This document shows positions 1,508-62,278 of a DNA stretch of 64,000 nt, one piece after another; within the stretch, counting starts at the first letter, position 1; each line of letters begins with the position of its first letter. The notes below the pieces were generated by a model, which was not told the origin of the DNA, ran no database searches, and saw nothing but the letters and a program-made list of their open reading frames with translations. Origin of the DNA: Faecalibacterium sp. I4-1-79 (GTDB lineage Bacteria > Bacillota > Clostridia > Oscillospirales > Ruminococcaceae); contig NZ_CP094467.1 in the NCBI RefSeq assembly GCF_023347235.1, forward strand, positions 992,001 to 1,056,000. Direction: 5' to 3'. The translations under genes and the position numbers were made by a program.

Positions 1508-2803
1508 TCAGCAAAGTGCTGCACGCACCCGCTCGCCGTCGTAGCGGCCAAGTTTTACCCGCACGATCTGCCCGCTCTCGCAGCCTGGGGCAGAGACCAC
1601 CACCGGGATGTACAGCCGGGTGTAGCCGGTAAACAGCGTGCCGGACAGGGGGGTCTCCAGCAGTACCTCGTCCTCGGTGCCCTCAAAGGCGGCCAGCGTC
1701 TCGCAGCGCACCTGTTCGGCTACGGCGTTCATGCGGCGGCTGCGCTCCTGCTTTTCCCGCTCGTGGATCTGATCCGGGAAATCATAAGCCGGGGTGCCGC
1801 TGCGGCGGGAGTAGGGGAACACATGCACTTTGAGGAAGCCGATCTTTTTCAGAAATTCGCAGCTTTCCTCAAAGTCGTCTGCTGTCTCGCCGGGGAAGCC
1901 GCAGATACAGTCGGTGGTAAAGCTGACCGGTCGGCTGCCGTAGGCGGCGCGGATCTGCTCCACCACCTGTGCATACTCCTGCGCGGTGTACACCCGGCGC
2001 ATCCGGCGCAAGGTGGCGGTGCAGCCGCTCTGCAAACTCAGGTGGAACTGGGGGCAAAGCTTGTCCACCGCTGCCAAGCGGGAGATGAATTCCGGGGTGA
2101 GCATATCGGGGTCAAGGCTGCCCAGACGGATGCGCTCGATGCCCGGCACCTGTGCGCACTTTTCCACCAGCTCCACAAGGTTCGTGCCAGTGTCCAGCCC
2201 GTAGCTGGGCAGGGAGATGGCGCTGAGCACCACCTCGCGGTAGCCTGCAGCGGCCAGCTGGTGCAGCTCGGCCAGAATGCTCTCCTCGGCACGGCTGCGC
2301 ACCGGCCCGCGGGCGCGGGGGATGACGCAGTAGGCGCACTGCCGGTTGCAGCCGTCCTCTACCTTGATAAAGGCGCGGGTGTGGGTCTCGAACCGCTCCA
2401 CCGGCAGCTCCTCGAACTGCTCGCCGCGCTGGTGCGGGGCGATGGCCACAATGCGCTCGTGGCCGTCCAGCAGCTTTTGTACGTTCTCCAAGATGGCCTT
2501 GCGGTCGCCGTTGCCGCACACAAGGTCGGCTTCCATGAACTGTGCGGCCTCCTCCGGGAAGGCCTGCGGGTAGCAGCCGGTCAGCACCGTCACCGCACCC
2601 GGATTCTCGCGCTTTTTGCGGCGCAGCCACTTGCGGCTCTTCTGGTCGCCGAAGTTGGTCACGGTGCAGCTGTTCACAATGAACACGTCCGCTGCTTCGC
2701 CTTCCTGCGCAATGGTAAAGCCGTGGGCGCGGAACAGCTGTTCCAGCGCGCCGGTCTCGTTCAGGTTGACCTTGCAGCCCAAGGTATAAAAACAAACTCG
2801 CAT
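1508..2803 (-). CDS. mtaB: tRNA t6A37 methylthiotransferase MtaB
   Basis: Radical-SAM methylthiotransferase that converts t6A37 to ms2t6A37 in tRNAs reading ANN codons. Seen in 431 residues: an N-terminal UPF0004 domain with cluster cysteines C10, C46 and C77, then the radical-SAM motif CNRQCAYC (C152, C156, C159), and a C-terminal TRAM-like stretch. I chose ATG 2803 because GGAAAGGA lies about 9 bases upstream. The longer frame from 2824 would place that ribosome site inside the coding sequence. MtaB rather than MiaB or RimO is inferred from the start MRVCFYTLGCKVNLNETG and the short C-terminus. It stands alone on the minus strand. Confidence 0.92.
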   Translation of the reverse strand: MRVCFYTLGCKVNLNETGALEQLFRAHGFTIAQEGEAADVFIVNSCTVTNFGDQKSRKWLRRKKRENPGAVTVLTGCYPQAFPEEAAQFMEADLVCGNGDRKAILENVQKLLDGHERIVAIAPHQRGEQFEELPVERFETHTRAFIKVEDGCNRQCAYCVIPRARGPVRSRAEESILAELHQLAAAGYREVVLSAISLPSYGLDTGTNLVELVEKCAQVPGIERIRLGSLDPDMLTPEFISRLAAVDKLCPQFHLSLQSGCTATLRRMRRVYTAQEYAQVVEQIRAAYGSRPVSFTTDCICGFPGETADDFEESCEFLKKIGFLKVHVFPYSRRSGTPAYDFPDQIHEREKQERSRRMNAVAEQVRCETLAAFEGTEDEVLLETPLSGTLFTGYTRLYIPVVVSAPGCESGQIVRVKLGRYDGERVRAALC

Positions 2804-2927
2804 GAGAGGGGTTCCTTTCCACAAAATGGGATAAAATAGGGTCTACTCTTCATTATATAACAAAACAACGGCAGCACGCAAGACCGGAATTGCACCGCCC
2901 GGCGGCAGCGGGTGGAAAAACGGCAGC

Positions 2928-2956
2928 AAAAAAGGGATGGACAAATGTCCATCCCC
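2928..2956 (-). terminator. Factor-independent terminator of the Tat lipoprotein gene
   Basis: A perfect 10-bp inverted repeat (GGGATGGACA / TGTCCATCCC, 2934-2943 and 2946-2955) with a 2-base loop is followed on the minus strand by a run of six T. It lies 16 bases after the stop of the gene at 2972. Confidence 0.9.
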
Positions 2957-2971
2957 GGGAAAACCAGAATA

Positions 2972-3565
2972 TCAGCCCTTGAGGGCAAGCAGCGCAATGG
3001 TAACCTTGCCATTTACGACGGTCAGGTTGTCGGTATAAGCCTTATCGATCTCAAGCTTAACTTGATTGTACGGCGGGTAGTTCAGCTTACTGTTGGCCAG
3101 CTCCAGTGCATCCTCTTCGGGAATCTTCGTCACGCCATTGGGGAACTTCTGCTTGCCGGAGCTGACGCTCTTGCCGTTAACCAATACTTCGTAATCGACC
3201 TCGACCATGGCAAGCTTGACGGCGATGATCAGGCTCTCCTTGCCGGTCTTTTCGTCTTTGATAAAGGTGAGGGAGTTCGGGTAGCTGCTGTCAACAGACA
3301 CATCGGCGCCGCGGTAATCCTCGGGGCCGTACTTCTTGGCCAGATCCAGAGCCAGATTGATGTTGCCCTTTACAAAGTTGACTGCAATGCGAGGCAGAGT
3401 CTTGTGGAAAACCTCGTTATAGGTTTTGCCATCATCAACGCTGCCCATGATCACCAGCTCAATATTATCAAACCAGGAGCAGCCAGTCAGCATAGAAGCA
3501 CCGGCGGTGGCAACCGCAGTAGCGCCAGCCAGCTTCAGGAAAGAACGGCGAGAAATCGTGCTCAT
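2972..3565 (-). CDS. Tat-exported lipoprotein of unknown function
   Basis: 197 residues. The N-terminus has a twin-arginine signal (SRRSFLK, residues 5-11), a hydrophobic stretch and a lipobox LTGC ending at Cys29, so the product should be exported folded and lipid-anchored. The remainder is rich in Val, Lys and Asp with a probable beta-sandwich character; I recognise no family. Single-gene unit: strong terminator at 2928-2956 and its own promoter at 3625-3653, which shares its -35 box with the divergent carboxypeptidase gene. Export is well supported; function is unknown. Confidence 0.85.
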   Translation of the reverse strand: MSTISRRSFLKLAGATAVATAGASMLTGCSWFDNIELVIMGSVDDGKTYNEVFHKTLPRIAVNFVKGNINLALDLAKKYGPEDYRGADVSVDSSYPNSLTFIKDEKTGKESLIIAVKLAMVEVDYEVLVNGKSVSSGKQKFPNGVTKIPEEDALELANSKLNYPPYNQVKLEIDKAYTDNLTVVNGKVTIALLALKG

Positions 3566-3624
3566 AAAAATCCCTCCAAAATAAAATCAATACATCCAAA
3601 ATGCAGAAGGTCTCTGCTACATAC

Positions 3625-3676
3625 AGAATACCGCAGAATAAAGCGTTTTGCAACGGACGTGTTCACACTTTGTATA
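3625..3676. promoter_or_regulatory. Divergent promoters sharing a palindromic TTGCAA -35 box
   Basis: TTGCAA at 3648-3653 is its own reverse complement. Rightward it is followed after 17 bases by TGTATA (3671-3676) towards the carboxypeptidase. Leftward it is followed after 17 bases by TATTCT (complement of 3625-3630) towards the lipoprotein. The two promoters would compete for one polymerase footprint. Confidence 0.6.
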
Positions 3677-3783
3677 TAAACACAGAATTCATGCGCCAAA
3701 ACTGAACAAAATGCCTAGCGGCATACCGGCGCGGGCGGCGGCATACACTGCAAAAAGAGAGTTTGCGCGGGGAGGTATGAGGA

Positions 3784-5016
3784 ATGGAACGGAGAAATCT
3801 GGCGCTGCTGTGCGCGGGGGTGGTCTGCTTCTGGTTGTTTGCACTGGCCTTTGGCACGGCGCAGGGCAAGGGACTGCGCATCCAACCGGCGGTGCAGGCG
3901 CAGGCGGAACCGGCAGTGCAGACCCTGACAGTCACCCCGCCGCAGCTTACCCTGCCCTGCCGCGCGGCGATGCTCATTGACCAGACCAGCGGCGCGGTGC
4001 TTTACGAGATGAATGCAGACCAGACTATGCCCATTGCCTCCATTACCAAGGTGATGACCCTGCTGCTCACCTTTGAGGCGGTGCACGCCGGGCGGCTGAC
4101 TATGGACACCGCCGTGCCGGTCAGTGAGCACGCCTACCACATGGGTGGCAGTCAGATCTGGCTGGAGCCCGGGGAGCAGTTCACGCTGGACGAGATGCTC
4201 AAGGCCATCTGTGTGTCCTCGGCCAATGACGCAGCGGTGGCGGTGGCGGAGCTGGTGGGCGGCAGCGAGCCCGCCTTTGTGCAGCAGATGAACGCCCGCG
4301 CCGCAGAGCTGGGCATGGAACACACCACTTTCCGCAACGCCTGCGGGCTGGACACCGAGGGACATCTTTCCACCGCACGGGATGTTGCCATCATGAGCCG
4401 CACTATCCTGAACACCTGCCCGGAGGTGCTGCACTATACCGGCATCTGGACGGACACTTTGCGGGGCGGGCAGACCCAGCTGGTGAACACCAATAAGCTG
4501 CTGCGGCGTTACAACGGCATCACCGGGCTCAAGACCGGCACCACCGGCGGAGCGGGCGTGTGCATTACCGCCAGCGCCACCCGGGACGGGCTGAACCTCA
4601 TCGCCGTGGTGCTGGGTGCACCTTCCAGTAAGGAACGGTTCGAAGCCGCCACCACCCTGCTGGACTACGGCTTTGCGGCTTACCGCGCCGCACCGGTGCC
4701 CCTGCCGCAGGAGCGTCCGCTGCAATTAAAAGTAAAGGGCAGCACGGAGGAGACTGTTCCGCTGGATTACGCTGCCCTGCCGCAGACCGCGTTGCTGCCC
4801 GCCGAAAGCGCCGGACAGCTGACCGTGCAACTGGAATTGCCCGACACGCTGGAAGCCCCGGTGACCCGGGGGCAGACGGTGGGCAAGGCACAGCTGCTGT
4901 GCGGCGAAGCCGTACAGGGGGAGTACCCGGTGTGCGCCGCCGCCGATGCGCCGTGCATGGATTTTGGCACCGCCTTGCGGCTGCTGTGGGACAGCCTGCG
5001 GGGAACAGCAGCCTGA
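3784..5016 (+). CDS. D-alanyl-D-alanine carboxypeptidase (DacF/PBP5 type)
   Basis: Low-molecular-weight penicillin-binding protein that trims the terminal D-Ala of peptidoglycan stem peptides. 410 residues: an N-terminal hydrophobic signal (about 5-25), then the serine peptidase S11 triad SITK (86-89), SAN (146-148) and KTG (250-252), all intact, and a C-terminal beta-domain of about 110 residues. DacF-like enzymes act in spore cortex and growth; which applies here is not visible. ATG 3784 follows GGAGG at a normal distance. A promoter with TTGCAA/TGTATA lies about 110 bases upstream. Confidence 0.92.
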   Translation: MERRNLALLCAGVVCFWLFALAFGTAQGKGLRIQPAVQAQAEPAVQTLTVTPPQLTLPCRAAMLIDQTSGAVLYEMNADQTMPIASITKVMTLLLTFEAVHAGRLTMDTAVPVSEHAYHMGGSQIWLEPGEQFTLDEMLKAICVSSANDAAVAVAELVGGSEPAFVQQMNARAAELGMEHTTFRNACGLDTEGHLSTARDVAIMSRTILNTCPEVLHYTGIWTDTLRGGQTQLVNTNKLLRRYNGITGLKTGTTGGAGVCITASATRDGLNLIAVVLGAPSSKERFEAATTLLDYGFAAYRAAPVPLPQERPLQLKVKGSTEETVPLDYAALPQTALLPAESAGQLTVQLELPDTLEAPVTRGQTVGKAQLLCGEAVQGEYPVCAAADAPCMDFGTALRLLWDSLRGTAA

Positions 5017-49394: not shown

Positions 49395-49838
49395 TCATAA
49401 ACGCTGCAAGGGCATCCCTTCTAACTTCATGTGATATTGTTTCAGCACATCTTTCAGCGTGATCTCTTGCATTCTTTGTTCCGCTGTTTTTTGAATGTCC
49501 AAGTAAAAATCCCGCAGCACCAGTTGGATATTTACGCCCACGCCACAAGCGGGGTTGGTGTGGATGTCCTGATGGAGCAGGGGCTTGTTGCCCTCTACTG
49601 CCCGATAGGCATCCAGCAGAGTGATTTTCTCCGGCTCACGAGCCAGAGCGGGTCGAGGATGTCCCTTCACGCTGACCAGCAGTCCACCCTTCCGCAGGGC
49701 GGACATGAGCTGGCGCACATAGGCAGGATTCGTCTGAATGCTCTCTGCCAGTTTGTTACTGGTCAGGTCGCAGTCTGGGTACAGAGCGATAAAAGCCAGA
49801 ATATGAACAGCATCGCTAAGGCGGGTGGGATATTTCAT
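49395..49838 (-). CDS. Rrf2 family transcriptional regulator
   Basis: 147 residues. Winged helix at the start (MKYPTRLSDAVHILAFIALYP... ESIQTNPAYVRQLMSALRKGGLL), then KITLLDAYRAVEG, typical of Rrf2. Only one Cys (NPACGVG) in the region that holds the three cluster Cys in IscR/NsrR, so a 4Fe-4S/2Fe-2S cluster of the usual kind is unlikely. It is divergent from the sirtuin genes with two operator-like repeats between, so it very probably controls them. Ribosome site AGGAGAT. Confidence 0.92.
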   Translation of the reverse strand: MKYPTRLSDAVHILAFIALYPDCDLTSNKLAESIQTNPAYVRQLMSALRKGGLLVSVKGHPRPALAREPEKITLLDAYRAVEGNKPLLHQDIHTNPACGVGVNIQLVLRDFYLDIQKTAEQRMQEITLKDVLKQYHMKLEGMPLQRL

Positions 49839-49864
49839 GGCCTGATCTCCTTTTTTGCTTTGAT

Positions 49865-49941
49865 GTTATTTTTATTATAACAGCATATTGACATTGACGC
49901 AAGAGGATGCTAAAATGTTTTGAAGTAAGAATAAAAATAAC
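49865..49941 (+). promoter_or_regulatory. Sirtuin operon promoter with paired Rrf2 operator candidates
   Basis: Promoter TTGACA (49888-49893), 17-base spacer, TAAAAT (49911-49916). On its left GTTATTTTTATTATAAC (49865-49881) and on its right the inverted copy GTAAGAATAAAAATAAC (49925-49941) share a 12-base core. Repression by the divergent Rrf2 protein is inferred. Confidence 0.7.
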
Positions 49942-49965
49942 ACCCGCTCGAAAGGAATGGTGACA

Positions 49966-50943
49966 ATGAACTTCTATGATGATCTGGTCATGCAGACCCA
50001 GATGAATTATTCCAGGCACTATCCTATCTATGCTTCCGGCAGTACGCCTTATCAGCTGACTGACAAAAAGCCGCTGCCGTATAGTGAACAGATTCATCGT
50101 TTGGTACAGGAGGTAAAGGAAGTTGACTGTGTGGTAGTGGGCGGGGCCTCCGGCCTGTCCGCTGCCGGTGGTGGAGATTTTTACTACGAGGACAACGACT
50201 CCTACCGCAAATACTTCCGGCCTTTTGCTGAGAAGTACCACTTCAAAGGTGCTTTTGCAGGGATGATGCACCCCTGGAAGACAAGGGAAGAGTATTGGGG
50301 GTATCTCGCCACCTTCCTTCACACCACCCAGACCGCACCGGTGCGTCATCCCTATCTGGATTTAGACGCTTTGCTGAAGGGCAAGGACTTCTTCATCCTC
50401 ACCACGAACCAGGATACCCAGTTTGTCAAACTCTACCCGGAGAAGGTGGCAGAGATTCAGGGGGATCACCGCTTCTTCCAGTGTGCCGCCTGTTGTACCG
50501 ATGACACTTGGGATGCGGTAAAGCCGGTGGCTGATATGGTAGCCGCTATGGGGAGTGACACGAAGATTCCCACGGATCTCATTCCCCGGTGCCCCCACTG
50601 CGGCGGAGAGGCATTCCCTTGGGTGCGAGGATATGGGAATTTTCTGCAAGGAAAGAAATACGAAGAACAGTACGAAAAAATTTCTCGCTATGTGCTGGAA
50701 CACAAAGACAGCAAAATTCTGTTTCTGGAGTTGGGCGTTGGTCGAATGACTCCCATGTTTATCCAAGAACCTTTCTGGAACATGACCCTCAGCTTTCCCC
50801 ATGCTCGATATATTGCTATCAACAACAAGTATGACTTCCTGCCCAAGCAGTTGGAGGACAAGGGCATGACCATTGTGGCCGACATTGCTCAAGTGCTGCG
50901 GGATGCACGGGATACCATGGAAAGCGGAGATAACGATCGATGA
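49966..50943 (+). CDS. Divergent sirtuin 1 (SirTM-like)
   Basis: 325 residues, Sir2 fold. NAD-binding loop is VVVGGASGLSAAGG (56-69) in place of GAGxSxxSGIPDFR. TTNQDTQF (146-153) replaces TQNIDxL. EIQGD (163-167) has Gln165 where the catalytic His normally precedes Gly. A zinc site is kept: CAAC (173-176) and CPHC (209-212). The His-to-Gln change is known in macrodomain-linked sirtuins (SirTM), which ADP-ribosylate rather than deacetylate. Function here is inferred. ATG 49966 has AAAGGA at the right distance. The stop overlaps the next gene (ATGA). Confidence 0.85.
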   Translation: MNFYDDLVMQTQMNYSRHYPIYASGSTPYQLTDKKPLPYSEQIHRLVQEVKEVDCVVVGGASGLSAAGGGDFYYEDNDSYRKYFRPFAEKYHFKGAFAGMMHPWKTREEYWGYLATFLHTTQTAPVRHPYLDLDALLKGKDFFILTTNQDTQFVKLYPEKVAEIQGDHRFFQCAACCTDDTWDAVKPVADMVAAMGSDTKIPTDLIPRCPHCGGEAFPWVRGYGNFLQGKKYEEQYEKISRYVLEHKDSKILFLELGVGRMTPMFIQEPFWNMTLSFPHARYIAINNKYDFLPKQLEDKGMTIVADIAQVLRDARDTMESGDNDR

Positions 50944-51821
50944 GGGGTGGAAACCAAGCGACGCTTCAGAAACTTGCCGAGCGTATTGATCAAGCAGATG
51001 CTGTTGTGATCGGAGGTGGCTCCGGCCTGTCAAGCGCGGCTGGATACGACCACTACCATTGGTCCCCGGCACTTTCGGAGGCATTGGCTCCCTTTCGCGA
51101 ACAGTATGGCTTTACCTCTCCGCTGGCTGGATTCTACCATTGCTTTTCCAGCTATGGAGAGCAGTGGGGATATTACAGTCAATATATCCGCTTCATGTGG
51201 GAAGCCCCTACTGGGCAGCCCTATCTGGACCTGCAAGCGCTTATTGCGGACAAACCTGCTTTTGTTCTGACCACCAATGTGGATCAGCAGTTTTTTCGAG
51301 TATTTTCCCAGAAACAAATTTGCGCCTTTCAGGGAGACTTTAGCTACTGCCAATGCAGCCAGCCCTGCCGGGATGATATTGGGGAAAACCGCGAGCTGGT
51401 GAAGGAACTGACTGGTTGCTTGGTAGGCGTTCGCCTGCCGGAGGAGTCTGTTCCTCGTTGCCCGGATTGCGGACGGATGCTGGTGCCCTGGGTACGAGAT
51501 GATACCTTCCTGGAGGGAACCTTCTGGCAGGATAGTCTGCATCGCTACCATAGATTCCTGCGACACTGGATAATGGATCAGTCCGACAAAAAAGTCCTGC
51601 TGTTGGAACTTGGCGTGGGTGAGATGACACCCAGCATCATCAAATTGCCCTTCTGGGAACTTACTGCCAAAAACGAAAACGTCTTTTATGCATGTCTTAA
51701 TCGAGAGGCATCTCATAGTCCAGAGCATCTGCGGGAACGCAGCCTGTATCTGCAAGGAGATTTGGCGGAAACCCTAGCTGCCCTCCGACAGGTGCGATCC
51801 ATCGCAGCAACCATAAAATAG
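50940..51821 (+). CDS. Divergent sirtuin 2 (SirTM-like)
   Basis: 293 residues, clearly a paralogue of the gene before it and overlapping it by 4 bases. GGGSGLSSAAG (25-35), TTNVDQQF (111-118), FQGDF with Gln131 in the catalytic-His place, and cysteines CQC-C (137-143) and CPDC. Same strand and spacing as a coupled operon. Possibly forms a hetero-oligomer with its neighbours or acts on different targets. Confidence 0.85.
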   Translation: MRGGNQATLQKLAERIDQADAVVIGGGSGLSSAAGYDHYHWSPALSEALAPFREQYGFTSPLAGFYHCFSSYGEQWGYYSQYIRFMWEAPTGQPYLDLQALIADKPAFVLTTNVDQQFFRVFSQKQICAFQGDFSYCQCSQPCRDDIGENRELVKELTGCLVGVRLPEESVPRCPDCGRMLVPWVRDDTFLEGTFWQDSLHRYHRFLRHWIMDQSDKKVLLLELGVGEMTPSIIKLPFWELTAKNENVFYACLNREASHSPEHLRERSLYLQGDLAETLAALRQVRSIAATIK

Positions 51822-51837
51822 AAAGGAGCGAACGAAT

Positions 51838-52675
51838 ATGATTGATTGGAACCCTATTGCGGAAAAATTCAGAGAAGCGGACGCTATCTTGATCGGGGCC
51901 AGTAACGGCCTGTCCATCACCGAAGGATTGCATTTGTTTGCAGATAATGCAGCCTTTGATGAATTGTTTGGAGATTTCAAACAAAAATACGGCTTACGTT
52001 GTATTTTGCAGGGCATGATGGCCGGATGGCCCAGCGAGGAGGAAAAGTGGGCCTTCTGGGCCCGGCTCATCCATCATTACTGCGGGCAGTACCAGCCTAC
52101 GCCGGTGATGAACGATTTGAAGGCCATTGTGGGAGAGAAAGATTACTTTGTCGTCACATCAAACGGAGAAGGTCACTTTGAACTGTGTGGCTTCGATCCG
52201 ACGAAAATCTATGAGATTGAGGGCAACTGGTTTACGATGCAGTGTGCCCGCCCCTGCCACGGCACCCTCTATTCAAGTTTAGAGGTGGCCGAAAAATTAT
52301 CGGCTGCCGAACAGGGCGGCCATGTGCCTACAGAGTTGGTGCCGCGCTGTCCCAAGTGCGGAAGTCCCATGGATATCCACATGGGCGCGGGTCAGAGAAT
52401 GATTCTGGATACCGCTGCTCAGGCACGGTTCCAAAACTTTCTGAAAACCTACCACGGGAAGAAACTGGTGGTTCTGGAGCTGGGCATTGGCTGGCGTAAT
52501 CAGGCTGATCAAGGCTCCGATGATGCGCTTGGTGGCCAGCGAGCCAAACGCCACTTATGTGACCATCAATCTGGGGGAGATCTACATTGTGGACAATATC
52601 AAAGAGAAGTCCTTCGGACTGGACGGGCGGCTGGATGAGCTACTGCCTGCTCTCCGGGAGGCGTGCGAGGCATGA
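51838..52675 (+). pseudogene. Divergent sirtuin 3, frameshifted near the C-terminus
   Basis: Third paralogue. NAD loop GASNGLSITEG (20-30), TSNGEGHF (107-114), YEIEGN with Glu128 in the catalytic-His place, zinc Cys pairs in CARPC and CPKC. The frame is intact to about 52500 (LGIGWRNQ); there one extra base (probably the G of CAGG) shifts it. The rest (LIKAPMMRLVASEPNATYVTINLGEIYIVDN... to 52675) continues in another frame. If unshifted it would have about 278 residues. It could be a real inactivation or a sequencing error. The shifted product ends at 52638. Confidence 0.8.
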
Positions 52676-52813
52676 CGATTTCGGAGCAGGTTCAAAATGA
52701 CTATGAAGTTTGTGGGGACCATAATCATCTATGCCTATTTGCAGGCAGTGGGAGTTATCAACTCTCATGAATCAGGTTGCTTCCTGAATCCTTCGCAGCA
52801 GTAGAGAATGCAT

Positions 52814-52856
52814 AAAAAAGCCGGGAAGTTGACTCAAATCGTCAATGCCTCCCGAC
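52814..52856 (-). terminator. Terminator of the HxlR gene
   Basis: On the minus strand GGGAGG..TTGAC pairs with GTCAA..TTCCC (about 52822-52855), followed by TTTTTTATG. The 52676-52813 stretch between the sirtuins and this hairpin shows no gene. Confidence 0.75.
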
Positions 52857-52887
52857 TATTATCATGCAGATATTAATATAGTTAGAA

Positions 52888-53241
52888 TCATGGTATATAT
52901 TTCATTCCCCATTGGGAAATTGCGTAAAAGACCGGCAGCAGGTCCCGCCCTTTCTCGGTGAGGGAGTACTCCACTCGCAGAGGCATTTCATTATATTGGA
53001 TACGCTGAACCAATTCGTCCGCTTCCAGTTCCTTCAGGGCGTTGGTCAGGGCTGTATTGGTAATGGGTTTGAGAACTTTTTTCAGTTCCCCAAACCGCAT
53101 GGGGCACTTGATGCACAGTTCATAGAGAATTTGGAGTTTCCATTTGCCCTGCAGCATTTGAACCACCGGCGTGACCGGGCAGTTTCCCTCGCCGGTTAGA
53201 ATGACACTGCCAACCTTTTCTTTGAATTCTTCATAAGTCAT
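52888..53241 (-). CDS. HxlR family transcriptional regulator
   Basis: 117 residues. CPVTPVVQMLQGKWKLQILYELCIKCPMRFGELKKVL is the HxlR winged helix with the conserved N-terminal Cys (CPV) often used for redox or electrophile sensing. Divergent from the flavin reductase, with palindromes between. Start 53241 has GAGGAAAG 8 bases upstream; ATGs further out are unlikely. Confidence 0.92.
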   Translation of the reverse strand: MTYEEFKEKVGSVILTGEGNCPVTPVVQMLQGKWKLQILYELCIKCPMRFGELKKVLKPITNTALTNALKELEADELVQRIQYNEMPLRVEYSLTEKGRDLLPVFYAISQWGMKYIP

Positions 53242-53286
53242 AATTGGAGCTTTCCTCATCTTTTGCGGTATATTTTTTGATACCAG

Positions 53287-53364
53287 GTACAAATAATTTG
53301 CGTACTTGAACAAAAATTGCTATCAGATATAATAAATATATCACTGGTTGACCATGCAGTCAAC
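53287..53364 (+). promoter_or_regulatory. Flavin reductase promoter with two palindromes
   Basis: TTGAAC (53306-53311), 16-base spacer, TATAAT (53328-53333). GTAC-N11-GTAC (53287-53305) touches the -35 and GTTGAC-N6-GTCAAC (53347-53364) lies just after the start point. Either could be the HxlR operator. Confidence 0.65.
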
Positions 53365-53395
53365 GACTGAAATTTCTTGGAAAGGTCTGAATTTT

Positions 53396-53899
53396 ATGAA
53401 AGAACTGAACATTATGGAGGCTACTGTTCTGACCTCCCCCAATCCGCTGACACTAATCTGCTCTAAAAAGGAGGATGGTTCTACGAACCTGGCTCCCATT
53501 TGCTTTGTGTCTTACCTCTCCTTCAATCCGCCTATGGTGGGCTTCGCCACTGGCAAACAGTCCCACACCGGCAAGCGTGTGCGTGAGACCGGCAAAGTCA
53601 TCGTCACTGTTCCCGGTGAGATTCTGGCTGGCGCAGTAATGGCCTGCGGAGCGTCTACCGGTGCCGAGACCGACAAGGTGGCCGCCAACAACATCGAGAT
53701 GATGGCTGTGGAGGGCAGCGACATCCAGATTCCGGCGGACACCCGGCTGGCGATGGTGGCTACCTTGCAGCAGTCGGTGGAGGTGGGCGACCATATCCTG
53801 CACATCTGTCAGGTGGACAAGTTCCTGGGCGATGAGGACAAGAAGGGCCTGTATGCCTGGAACGGCTTCGGGAAAGTTGCACCTGCGGCAGAAGGCTAA
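53396..53899 (+). CDS. Flavin reductase family protein
   Basis: 167 residues. Split-barrel flavin-binding fold: NIMEATVLTSPNPLTLICSKKEDGSTNLAPICFVSYLSFNPPMVGFATG..., with GVPG-like TVPGEILAGAVMACGAST. Reduces FMN/FAD or uses bound flavin; a possible electron donor for the radical-SAM pair downstream. Ribosome site GAAAGG. It lies 28 bases before the pair and is probably in one operon. Confidence 0.88.
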   Translation: MKELNIMEATVLTSPNPLTLICSKKEDGSTNLAPICFVSYLSFNPPMVGFATGKQSHTGKRVRETGKVIVTVPGEILAGAVMACGASTGAETDKVAANNIEMMAVEGSDIQIPADTRLAMVATLQQSVEVGDHILHICQVDKFLGDEDKKGLYAWNGFGKVAPAAEG

Positions 53900-53927
53900 A
53901 TCTTAAAACGGTAAGGAGGCATCAGCG

Positions 53928-54617
53928 GTGGCTGTTTGTATTAAAGACTGTATTCAGAACATGAATCTGGTGATCGGCTGTACAATCGGCTGCAGCTACT
54001 GCTACGCCAGAAATAATGTCCGCCGGTTTCACATGATCGACGACTTTGAAAAGCCAGAGTTTTTTCCAAATAAGCTGCGGCTGATGGAGAAAAAGCGCCC
54101 ACAGAATTTTCTGCTCACCGGCATGAGCGATTTTTCCCACTGGAATACAGAGTGGCGGGAACAGATATTTACCAAGATGACTGAAAATCCGCAGCATCAA
54201 TATCTGTTTTTGACCAAGCGACCGGAAGATATTGTGTTTTCCACTACCCTGGAGAATGCGTGGTTTGGTGTAACTGTTACCTCCAGTAAAGAGAAAAACC
54301 GTATCCAGACTTTGCGGGAGCATATCCATGGCGGACACTATCATGTGACCTTTGAACCTATGTTTGATGAGGTTGGCATGGTAGACCTTACCGGAATTGA
54401 GTGGATCGTTATTGGGACTGAGACCGGACATAGGAAGGACAAAGCCGTATCGAAACCGGAATGGGTGTGGAACCTGACACATCAGGCCCATGCGCTTGGC
54501 ATCCCTGTATTTATGAAAGAAGATCTGCTACCTATCATGGGAGAGGCACAGATGGTACAAGAATTTCCCCCGGCTTTTTACCGGGTATTGGAGGAGCAGA
54601 AGACATGGCGGAAGTAA
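53928..54617 (+). CDS. Radical SAM mobile pair protein A-like
   Basis: 229 residues. CTIGCSYCYARNNVRRF (CxxxCxxC) near residue 18 is the radical-SAM 4Fe-4S site; YLFLTKRPEDI, VTVTSSKEKNRI and FEPMFDEV resemble the DUF5131/phage Gp37 group. It starts at GTG 53928, with AGGAGG 8 bases upstream, and overlaps the partner gene by 13 bases. NCBI models describe a two-gene 'radical SAM mobile pair' in mobile elements, usually with a MarR-family regulator; here an HxlR regulator is nearby instead. Substrate unknown. Confidence 0.85.
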   Translation: MAVCIKDCIQNMNLVIGCTIGCSYCYARNNVRRFHMIDDFEKPEFFPNKLRLMEKKRPQNFLLTGMSDFSHWNTEWREQIFTKMTENPQHQYLFLTKRPEDIVFSTTLENAWFGVTVTSSKEKNRIQTLREHIHGGHYHVTFEPMFDEVGMVDLTGIEWIVIGTETGHRKDKAVSKPEWVWNLTHQAHALGIPVFMKEDLLPIMGEAQMVQEFPPAFYRVLEEQKTWRK

Positions 54618-55522
54618 AAGAGAGCAGCATTCTGATTCAGGATGCAGAAACCAAAAATATTATGACAAAATCCACCCTGCCGGTGGGAGGCTATTCCGTC
54701 AATCCTTATGTGGGCTGTACCCATGGCTGCAAATACTGCTACGCCTCGTTTATGAAGCGATTTACCGGGCACACCGAACCGTGGGGTACATTCCTGGATG
54801 TGAAACATTGGCCAGCAATCAAAAATCCGCAAAAGTACAAAGGGCAGCGCGTAGTTATCGGTTCAGTGACCGATGGCTATCTGCCCCAGGAGGCTCAGTT
54901 TCAGAACACCCGAAAGCTTCTTGAACAACTCCGGGGCAGTGAGGCAGAAATTCTCATCTGTACCAAGTCGGACTTGGTAATCCGTGACATCGACCTTCTG
55001 AAAAAATTGGGAAAGGTCACGGTCTCTTGGTCGATCAATACATTAGACGAAGGCTTTAAAAATGATATGGACGATGCCGTCAGCATCAAGCGACGGCTGG
55101 AGGCCATGAAGCAGATCTATGATGCGGGCATTCGCACCGTCTGCTTTATTGCCCCTGTCTTTCCGGGTATCACGGATTTTGAGGCTATCTTCCATCAGGT
55201 CAGAAATCAATGCGACCTGATATGGTTAGAAAATCTAAATCTGCGAGGCGGATTCAAAAAAGACATCATGGACTATATTTGTAAAAAATATCCTGACTTG
55301 GTTCCGCTGTACGACGCTATCTACAACAAGGGAGACAGAAGCTACTTCCGTGGTTTGGAGGATCAAGCGGAACGGCTGGCGAAAGAAAACAACTGTCCCT
55401 TCGTGGACAACGAGCTGCCCTACGGACGAGCAGAGCCTGGGCACCCGGTCATTGTGGATTACTTTTACCATGAGGAAGTTCGTGGCTCGGAAAACACCGG
55501 GCGACGCAACCCCAAAAAATAA
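54605..55522 (+). CDS. Radical SAM mobile pair protein B-like (SplB-like)
   Basis: 305 residues. Radical-SAM motif CTHGCKYCYASF (CxxxCxxC) near residue 38. Residues GSVTDGYLPQEAQFQNTRKLLEQL and LICTKSD recall spore photoproduct lyase-like proteins. Partner of the gene before it, with which it overlaps. DNA, RNA or peptide repair/modification are all possible. Start ATG 54605 follows TTGGAGG. The last gene of the island. Confidence 0.85.
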   Translation: MAEVKESSILIQDAETKNIMTKSTLPVGGYSVNPYVGCTHGCKYCYASFMKRFTGHTEPWGTFLDVKHWPAIKNPQKYKGQRVVIGSVTDGYLPQEAQFQNTRKLLEQLRGSEAEILICTKSDLVIRDIDLLKKLGKVTVSWSINTLDEGFKNDMDDAVSIKRRLEAMKQIYDAGIRTVCFIAPVFPGITDFEAIFHQVRNQCDLIWLENLNLRGGFKKDIMDYICKKYPDLVPLYDAIYNKGDRSYFRGLEDQAERLAKENNCPFVDNELPYGRAEPGHPVIVDYFYHEEVRGSENTGRRNPKK

Positions 55523-55562
55523 TTTGTGAAATAAATGGGTTCTGACATGGAGTTGTGCTTCA

Positions 55563-55955
55563 ATGTCAGAACCTTTTTTAGCACTGTTTAAGCATCAACA
55601 TGATCATCATTCAGAGTATGCCATGGTCTATTCCGATGAGATTGAGGACAAGATCGACCAGATCATGTTGGAGCTGAAGCACTGTTGTCCTAATCTGATC
55701 AACTGCCGCTGGCACGCATTGAAACTGCTGGAAGGAGATACCCCAATGCAAAGCTGCTGGTCACCAGCAAAAAAGATTTTGAACCCGGTAATCGCAAAAA
55801 ATTCTGTGCGAGAATTGCGACCGGTGATTATGATGCGGTTACAACATCATTATTGACCTTGCCCGAAAGTACAGCCGCAAGGTGCGGTATTTTGCCTATG
55901 CCAGTGCAACGAAATGCGCGGAACAGGTCGTTGTGGAAGAGGAAAACGCAGTTAA
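55563..55955 (+). pseudogene. Mosaic of FeoB, ICE helicase and unidentified gene fragments
   Basis: 55580-55740 encodes EYAMVYSDEIEDKIDQIMLELKH...RWHALKLLEGD, like the helical part of iron transporter FeoB. 55745-55840 then reads KLLVTSKKDFEP.NRKKFCARIATGDYDAV, as in the ICE helicase. From about 55842 a different frame reads YNIIIDLARKYSRKVRYF to a stop at 55957-55959 and matches nothing I know. Joined remnants, not a gene. Confidence 0.65.
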
Positions 55956-61221: not shown

Positions 61222-61749
61222 ATGGTTTTACTGGTTGTGGATACACAGAAAGGTATCGTGGATGAACGCCTGTATGCGTTTGAAAAGTTTGTCAGCAACA
61301 TCAGGAAACTAATCCGGACTGCCCGCGAACAGGGAATCGAGGTCGTCTATGTCCAGCATGACGATGGGCCCGGTACAGGCTTTTCCATCGGGGACGATGA
61401 ATTTGAGGTCTATTCCGGGTTTGCGCCACTGCTGACTGAAAAACGGTTCGTCAAGACTGTATGCAGTGCGTTCAAAAAAGAAAGCGGTCTGCTGGAATAT
61501 CTGACGGAAAAGGGCGAAAAAGATGTGATGGTCTGCGGCATCATGACCGACTTCTGCATCAATGCAACGGTGGAGGCGGGCTTTGAGCATGGCCTGCACA
61601 TGATCGTTCCTGCCTATGCAAATTCCACGCAGGACAACGAGTATATGACAGGGGAGCAGAGCTACCACTATTACAATGAATTCCTCTGGCCGGACCGCTA
61701 TGCCGATTGTGTGCCCATGGACAAGGCGCTGGAGCTGCTCAAAAAGTGA
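61222..61749 (+). CDS. Isochorismatase-family cysteine hydrolase
   Basis: 175 residues. Candidate triad: Asp7 (VVDTQKG), Lys88 (FVKTVCSAF) and Cys112 ([13 protein letters not shown]). Most such proteins hydrolyse amides such as nicotinamide; the substrate is not evident. Ribosome site GGAGGGC. It lies 10 bases before the macrodomain gene in one operon; a nicotinamidase role would fit NAD metabolism with it. Confidence 0.9.
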
Positions 61750-61759
61750 GGTGTTTACA

Positions 61760-62278
61760 ATGATTTCTGAAAAAGTAAAAAATCAGATTCAAGTGGTGCA
61801 GGGTGATATTACCAAACTGGACTGTGACGGCATCGTGAATGCGGCCAATCGCAGTCTGCTGGGTGGCGGCGGTGTGGATGGTGCCATCCACCGGGCAGCA
61901 GGGCCGGAACTGTTGGCGGAGTGCCGCACGCTGCACGGCTGCCGCACCGGAGAAGCAAAAATCACTAAGGGCTACCGGTTGAAAGCAAAGTATATCATTC
62001 ATACAGTAGGGCCGATTTATTCCGGCACAGCAGAGGATGCCGCGCAGCTGGCGGACTGCTACCGCAATTCGCTGAACCTTGCCAAAGAGCATGATGCCCA
62101 TAGCATTGCGTTCCCGGCAATTTCGATCGGCGTGTATGGCTACCCGCTGGAAGATGCCACGGAGATTGCAGTCAAAACAGTGGCACAGTGGCTGGAAGAT
62201 CACGCGGATTACGCCATGCAGGTGATTTTCTGCTGCTTCGATGCCCGGACGGAGCGGGTGTATCAGGCAAGGCTGTAA
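61760..62278 (+). CDS. Macrodomain ADP-ribose hydrolase
   Basis: 172 residues. Conserved [35 protein letters not shown] and [14 protein letters not shown] match MacroD/YmdB-type enzymes that remove ADP-ribose from proteins or O-acetyl-ADP-ribose. Coupled with the isochorismatase gene. It is 9 kb from the sirtuin array and may or may not work with it. Confidence 0.95.

Follow-up and report, generated by a model that had tools for sequence, protein, structure and literature searches.

Here we describe a compact gene island at positions 49,395-55,522 of a 64,000-nucleotide stretch of the Faecalibacterium sp. I4-1-79 genome (contig NZ_CP094467.1, positions 992,001 to 1,056,000; this whole stretch is called the window below). 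In the island the gene of an Rrf2-family regulator is divergent from three tandem sirtuin genes (SirA, SirB and SirC), and the gene of an HxlR-family regulator is divergent from genes for a flavin reductase-like protein and for proteins A and B of the radical SAM mobile pair (rSAM-A and rSAM-B). Judging from sequence comparisons, we give an even chance to the reading that the island encodes a mobile, stress-induced adenosine diphosphate (ADP)-ribosylation system in which class M-like sirtuins are paired and a radical-SAM module is optional. The core of this arrangement is formed by the two sirtuin types; the radical-SAM genes are optional and have their own regulator and box in the window. The most novel part of the array is SirC, the partner in which Glu-Gly (EG) takes the place of Gln-Gly (QG) at the catalytic position.

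SirA (49,957-50,943, plus strand) and SirB (50,940-51,821, plus strand), whose reading frames overlap by four bases, as well as SirC (51,838-52,675, plus strand, in a broken frame that is open over 51,838-52,638) all fall under the Pfam SIR2 cut-off. The best solved relative of each is SirTM of Streptococcus pyogenes (SpySirTM, 5a3a), with E-values of 4.6e-43, 1.9e-39 and 1.1e-32, respectively. For comparison we used the best 80 of 130 SirA loci from a scan of genome contigs, with 67-98% identity to the SirA of the window. Across the sirtuin frames of the window and these loci, 164 in number (only frames longer than 600 bases and above 90 bits were counted), QG is found in 81/81 SirA, 20/21 SirB and 0/62 SirC frames. 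All 62 SirC frames carry EG instead, i.e. Glu replaces the catalytic Gln. A reading of the array as canonical Sir2 deacylases was rejected, as all three proteins are under the SIR2 cut-off and carry QG or EG; the single SIR2 match of the genome is situated away from the array.

The catalytic positions were compared in a 74-row alignment of 20 canonical SirTM, 18 SirA, 14 SirB and 22 SirC proteins, with the residue roles in SpySirTM taken from an excerpt of PMC4518038. Asn118, Asp120, Gln137, Arg192, Thr-Pro and Asn258 are kept in 18/18 SirA, 14/14 SirB and 20/20 canonical SirTM rows; QG in the canonical proteins was read from the alignment columns (20/20), the plain pattern matching just 2/43. 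Both QG-type sirtuins appear class M-like and are probably able to ADP-ribosylate proteins, SirA being annotated here as a probable ADP-ribosyltransferase. SirC keeps Asn118 and Asn258 in 22/22 rows and the zinc Cys in 21/22, has Glu at Gln137 in 22/22 and at Asp120 in 20/22, and in these 22 rows shows no Arg192 and either Asn-Gln or Asn-Arg for Thr-Pro. At the class motif GVGx[NT]TP we find mostly GVGRLTP or GVGRMTP in SirA, GVGEMTP in SirB and mostly GIGWRNQ in SirC; GVGxNTP is present in 42/43 canonical SirTM proteins.

Phylogenetic analysis places SirA, SirB, SirC and canonical SirTM in four separate clades, each with a Shimodaira-Hasegawa-like approximate likelihood ratio (SH-aLRT) support of 97-100. 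The predicted model of the SirC in L002, a locus from a record titled Fusicatenibacter saccharivorans, has a predicted local distance difference test (pLDDT) score of 94.8; its closest solved fold is SpySirTM (template modelling (TM) score 0.89), with other sirtuins lower. Because of its own clade, the kept residues and Glu, and the SirTM-like fold of the model, SirC is on these comparisons a conserved special paralogue rather than a decaying one, despite the broken copy in the window. Decay as the origin of the SirC Glu was rejected, given EG in 62/62 frames and in three pairs from Bacilli. SirB is optional, since L003 and L004, compared with the window, have no SirB between SirA and SirC.

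The QG-EG pair extends beyond the island, from Clostridia to Bacilli (Bacillales and Lactobacillales). In Mesobacillus foraminis and Paenibacillus sp. 37, plasmids encode one QG and one EG sirtuin; behind these come genes for an HD-annotated protein, a nicotinate phosphoribosyltransferase and an isochorismatase-family protein, and an HxlR gene is nearby. On a Lactiplantibacillus plasmid (L165:3115-5287), a TetR gene stands with genes for two sirtuins, first one of QG type and then one of EG type, the latter in-frame with a cupin-annotated part; riboflavin synthesis genes lie downstream. When these six proteins were added to the tree, SirA was joined by the three QG proteins (98) and SirC by the three EG proteins (100). 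This second clade tree was built without the long-branched SirC proteins of L054 and L070, and the Lactiplantibacillus branches in it are long. The isochorismatase-family protein scores under the nicotinamidase cut-off, and pieces of isochorismatase and phosphoribosyltransferase genes adjoin SirC in L062. Nicotinamide recycling next to enzymes that consume nicotinamide adenine dinucleotide (NAD) would fit an active writer.

The HD-annotated gene bears on a different explanation, nucleotide or RNA end-repair, in which ADP-ribose would be placed on phosphate ends or small molecules instead of proteins and the HD gene past SirC would encode a phosphohydrolase. Relatives of the HD protein occur in 8/80 SirA loci, directly after SirC in seven, as well as in the Bacillales operons; macrodomain-free sirtuins with RNA repair genes have been proposed for phages in an excerpt of PMC9503650, and rSAM-B is weakly similar to a family named DNA repair photolyase. 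However, none of the HD proteins matched a Pfam family at 1e-4, and among ten recurrent neighbours put to Pfam none was recognised as an RNA ligase or end-processing gene, although no direct search for such genes was made. We consider end-repair very improbable.

The regulators of the island are of a redox type. The Rrf2-family protein (49,395-49,838, minus strand; PF02082, 101 bits) is divergent from SirA, and its nearest curated models are rrf2_super and the redox-sensitive HypR, both under cut-off. Its operator candidate, TGTTATTTTTATTATAACA at 49,864-49,882 (no strand), has the form TGTTA-N9-TAACA and is the only perfect one of three such sites with at most one mismatch in the whole window. 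At the same tolerance the box is found in 46/46 Rrf2-SirA regions, window included, and the spacing of 9 was met 74 times in these regions compared to 4 times for all other spacings between 5 and 10. In a few regions (e.g. L002, L036, L038 and L041) the Rrf2 start was misplaced, and these regions were lengthened. The HxlR-family protein (52,888-53,241, minus strand; PF01638, 94.5 bits) scores 86 and 70 bits with the redox regulator models RrpA and RrpB, under cut-off; the ATG at 53,241 is its preferred, inferred start in a frame open to 53,313. No TGTTA-N9-TAACA site with at most one mismatch lies near the window HxlR or flavin reductase gene. The HxlR operator candidate is GTAC-N11-GTAC at 53,287-53,305 (no strand), a single site in the window that is exact in 9/13 HxlR-side regions. 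Cys98 of Rrf2 is kept in 59/59 frames including that of the window, and Cys45 and Cys67 of HxlR (P0005 numbering) in 9/9. In HypR, an Rrf2 protein, and in YodB, an HxlR protein, cysteines of this kind act as oxidant sensors.

The protein-tagging sirtuins known so far come mainly with a macrodomain eraser. A Zn-macrodomain lies near 43/43 canonical SirTM loci examined (40 from the sample of the window's order and L107-L109), at about 1 kb in L153. Macrodomain matches occur in 2/80 SirA loci, neither of them in the operon: in L002 the match lies 3.5 kb past the island in a context unlike that of the window, and in L022 it is a fragment adjoining a canonical SirTM fragment. The genome of the window has a single macrodomain match, at 61,835-62,170, which lies outside the sirtuin operon, 6 kb downstream of the island. 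At window positions 61,222-62,278 an isochorismatase-family gene overlaps the downstream macrodomain gene, which is MacroD-like as judged by eye.

From the residues, clades and neighbours we infer an ADP-ribosylation mechanism in which SirC stands in the macrodomain's place. Oxidants or electrophiles would act on Rrf2 through Cys98, so that the operon is released. SirA and SirB would then cleave NAD and move ADP-ribose onto a target in the cell. With its fold, zinc Cys and NAD-contacting Asn kept, SirC would serve as an eraser, a reader or an obligate partner. The flavin reductase, rSAM-A and rSAM-B would form a separate redox-type cassette that has been recruited to the same islands again and again, probably because it responds to the same stress or acts on the same targets. 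In place of the macrodomain, this family, which is conserved across Clostridia and Bacilli, has an altered second sirtuin, which raises the testable question whether a sirtuin fold can erase or read ADP-ribose. A bolder version, which we put forward tentatively and regard as doubtful, is that QG and EG sirtuins form a two-component ADP-ribosylation system of their own, apart from macrodomain-SirTM, where SirA writes, SirC erases or redirects the mark by means of an ADP-ribose pocket in which Glu is the new general base, and the pair A/B together with DUF5131 proteins acts on the marked target. If true, one sirtuin would undo the work of another, and the orphan radical-SAM pair A/B would have a first role.

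The same genes could instead make up a NAD-depleting anti-phage or abortive unit, with SirA and SirB as triggered NADases and SirC as sensor, and a role in defence had also been raised in an earlier note made from the sequence of this DNA. Sirtuins are NADase effectors in known defence systems according to an excerpt of PMC9503650, the location is mobile, and rSAM-A matches the PADLOC candidate models PDC-M30B and PDC-M41B. PADLOC gave no match for SirA, SirB, SirC (L002 copy), Rrf2, HxlR or the flavin reductase, so that the hits are confined to candidate models for rSAM-A and, weakly, rSAM-B. Moreover, SirA and SirB retain the Gln of the protein ADP-ribosylating SirTM, the regulators are redox-type, NAD salvage genes adjoin the pair on two Bacillales plasmids, and SirA is matched by only 1/50,697 phage records, at 29%. 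The defence idea is thus not borne out, and we judge such a unit improbable.

We then return to the reading of a sirtuin ADP-ribosylation system and to its link with the radical-SAM genes. In the window, the flavin reductase-like protein (53,396-53,899, plus strand; PF01613, 66.7 bits) is followed by rSAM-A of the DUF5131 family (53,928-54,617, plus strand; TIGR04471, 418 bits with a cut-off of 355; PF07505, 113 bits) and rSAM-B (54,605-55,522, plus strand; TIGR04470, 593 bits with a cut-off of 410). The inferred rSAM-B start at 54,605 is inside the end of rSAM-A, giving a 13-base overlap, and CxxxCxxC is kept in 17/17 rSAM-A and 16/16 rSAM-B proteins. With linkage defined as rSAM-A or rSAM-B within up to 8 kb per side of SirA, radical-SAM genes are linked to 17/80 SirA loci in several arrangements. 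The cassette lies downstream as in the window in L002, L006 and L007, and in L039 with Rrf2 in between; it lies upstream and in opposite direction in L009, L012 and L019, in L009 without a flavin reductase match. Rrf2 is followed by rSAM-A and rSAM-B on one strand in L034, L035, L036 and L038, and with a 3.5 kb gap in L022. Here, rSAM-A adjoins the Rrf2 end or overlaps it by at most 8 bases in L036 and L038 (inferred starts), and about 400 bases separate the two in L034 and L035, the rSAM-A of L034 being short. SirA and SirC are followed by a MarR gene and the pair in the near-copies L070, L072, L077 and L081, of which at least L070 also has TetR upstream. With TIGR04472 (cut-off 240), the L072 MarR protein reaches 287 bits, compared to 11.8 bits for the window HxlR. 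L043 has rSAM-A only. In L010, HxlR and flavin reductase genes are followed by the contig end. L044, with a 66-bit rSAM-B piece where its contig ends, and L011 and L024, whose pieces are weaker, were not included among the linked loci.

These arrangements have to be weighed against the explanation that two unrelated cargo cassettes, the sirtuin array and the HxlR/flavin reductase/radical-SAM genes, share mobile elements but not function, which we hold to be possible, if somewhat unlikely. Regulators and boxes differ between the cassettes, and each occurs alone: HxlR-flavin reductase-radical-SAM stretches without the array are present in genomes G013 and G062, and no pair lies near a second array in the window's own genome. 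Nearby cases are copies, as the window and L002 have one block in common. On a SirA tree of 77 of the 81 rows (without L009, L042, L046 and L062, L009 being a linked locus; 17 rows are linked, window included) the linkage label is clustered, with 0/500 shuffles as low, and the 17 linked loci are therefore not 17 independent events. On the other hand, the label needs 11 changes on this tree, at least seven of which are forced by starred branches, the arrangements are several, and a DUF5131 gene also follows the macrodomain-SirTM pair in 3/43 canonical loci, although one of the three has it only as pieces.

Co-occurrence in whole genomes also argues against unrelated cassettes. The pair was sought in the genomes of 50 of the 63 unlinked SirA loci, which span several orders; all tests treat genomes as independent, with no taxonomy matching. 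As background, rSAM-A over cut-off is present in 11/295 genomes of the window's order, 6/391 of its class and 5/246 of the order of G711, G711 included, or 4/245 without it. The pair is found in 13/50 genomes of unlinked loci versus 4/245 in the background (Fisher p 3e-8). Two of these cases, G668 and G697, are pairs already counted in L081 and L022, next to another SirA copy; judged by contig number and place, L081 and L022 belong to the same genomes as L003 and L051. After their removal the enrichment remains (11/48 versus 4/245, p 7e-7). In G671 one contig carries both, with 14 kb between the pair and SirA. The control TnpW, a mobile-element marker, occurs in 16/50 versus 56/245 (p 0.21) or, after the removal, 16/48 versus 56/245 genomes (p 0.14); its background with G711 is 57/246. 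Mobile-element load as the cause of the co-occurrence is weakened by this lack of clear enrichment, for a single marker and across several orders. In the sample of the window's order, EG-type SirC above 390 bits is present in four genomes, three of which carry rSAM-A on the same contig versus 8/291 of the other genomes (p 1.5e-4); the three include the window's own genome, and another of them, G293, is apparently the genome of L008. The orphan radical-SAM mobile pair thus gains a statistically supported partner.

The earlier note had proposed to look for repeated sirtuin/radical-SAM linkage above chance, and such linkage is found both in the loci and in the genomes. Its suggestion of a sirtuin and radical-SAM joint unit does not hold as an obligatory one, given the loci without a pair gene and the different regulators and boxes in the window. 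It had also named different regulons for the two halves as an argument against a unit; regulators and boxes do differ in the window, yet the radical-SAM genes of L036 and L038 adjoin or overlap Rrf2 on one strand.

Other genes recur next to SirA as well. DUF3786 is present in 21/80 loci and CooC-like P-loop ATPases in 18/80 (BLAST clusters with representatives named by Pfam), one or the other in 25/80, three of which also have radical-SAM genes. MoxR and VWA/CobT-type genes are found in 5/80. Loci with DUF3786 and CooC-like ATPases, some also with MoxR plus VWA/CobT-type genes, include L019, L030, L047, L057, L069 and L075. NifH-type ATPases are known ADP-ribosylation targets, and by analogy the CooC-like proteins could be targets too. 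A search of the window's own genome for DUF3786 gave no match, nor did the controls of that search. Among the SirA loci, L061 carries a DUF5131 gene. A Zn-macrodomain, canonical SirTM and DUF5131 gene stand in a row in L107:10277-12774, L108:2436-4904 and L109, where the DUF5131 gene is in pieces; L108 has a divergent HxlR-like gene. The idea that DUF5131 regularly accompanies canonical SirTM is weakened, as the other 40 canonical loci have no DUF5131 match. In L145, which belongs to these 40, at 1634-4159 (L145:1634-4159) an rSAM-B-like gene directly precedes a Zn-macrodomain-SirTM pair, and the genome, G036, has no rSAM-A match.

Several points weigh against a sirtuin system with a radical-SAM module. 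The two halves of the island carry different candidate boxes in the window, and 63/80 SirA loci have no radical-SAM pair gene within up to 8 kb per side. DUF3786 or CooC-like genes are about as frequent as radical-SAM genes, and the latter are therefore not privileged but one of several accessory contexts. In 13/80 SirA loci, some of them cut short by contig ends, no SirC was found. The SirA motif is mostly GVGR[ML]TP and differs from the exact class motif GVGx[NT]TP. The 80 loci are the best of 130 and represent only SirA proteins with at least 67% identity to that of the window, and the macrodomain count of 43/43 leaves out 18 lower-scoring SirTM-like places (at most 202.3 bits). Finally, SirC as an eraser is a guess, and the protein could be a dead scaffold.

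The homology of SirC in its own frame ends near 52,503, and the C-terminal part continues in another frame up to 52,675. The same genome contains a second Rrf2-SirA-SirB-SirC array (L112, G000:C1:88600-91182; 88.6-91.2 kb) with all three sirtuins open and 93.8% identity to the window over 3,250 bases. No radical-SAM pair was found in the 14 kb examined around this second array, and the rSAM-A of the window is the only one over cut-off in its genome. The window array is thus half-worn, with SirC broken and an intact array elsewhere. L002 is collinear with window positions 49,427-55,590 in blocks of 95.5-97.2% identity; its copy is without the window stretch 53,945-54,395, and its rSAM-A is a fragment. 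L006 matches the window in two blocks with about 1.5 kb between them. Upstream of the island are genes for MobA/MobL, a Toprim/AAA protein, part of a helicase and NikA/MobC-like proteins; because of the MobA/MobL and NikA/MobC-like genes the label of a mobile element fits. Close relatives of SirA are found in records titled Desulfovibrio, Collinsella, Coriobacteriaceae and Succinivibrionaceae (L041, L046, L049, L052, L054, L066 and L067), which suggests cross-phylum transfer in the gut or misbinned contigs.

Much of the earlier note's description of the island holds. Profile matches agree with its Rrf2, HxlR, flavin reductase and radical-SAM pair, the upstream genes with its mobile setting, and the kept catalytic positions of SirA and SirB, with 5a3a as best solved relative, with its suggestion of SirTM-type sirtuins. 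Its three tandem sirtuins are all SirTM-like, while the third is not intact in the window.

Known partners of SirTM are GcvH-L, LplA2, OYE and LLM, with GcvH-L and LplA2 in the extended operon only. In open PubMed Central (PMC) papers, surveyed by titles and the starts of abstracts, we found no QG-EG sirtuin pair and no sirtuin/radical-SAM linkage. The closest known system is SirTM with a Zn-macrodomain in S. pyogenes and S. aureus, as described in excerpts of PMC4518038 and PMC11490716. SirA and SirB share its fold, with Gln for His, and like it keep Asn118, Arg192, Thr-Pro and Asn258 in a redox context with a flavin enzyme nearby. Unlike that system, the array has no macrodomain in the operon, consists of two to three tandem paralogues, one with Glu, has an adjacent Rrf2, carries GVGR[ML]TP for GVGx[NT]TP in SirA and falls into separate clades. 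The macrodomain-SirTM-DUF5131 operons of L107, L108 and, in pieces, L109 likewise place a class M sirtuin next to a DUF5131 protein, but they belong to the canonical SirTM clade, include the Zn-macrodomain and encode a DUF5131 protein that is not TIGR04471. The radical SAM mobile pair (TIGR04471, TIGR04470 and TIGR04472) is matched by the window proteins A and B, which are over the cut-offs, encoded by overlapping genes (inferred start) and located in a mobile element. In contrast to the pair with MarR, the window regulator is an HxlR protein rather than TIGR04472, a flavin reductase is added and a sirtuin array is linked.

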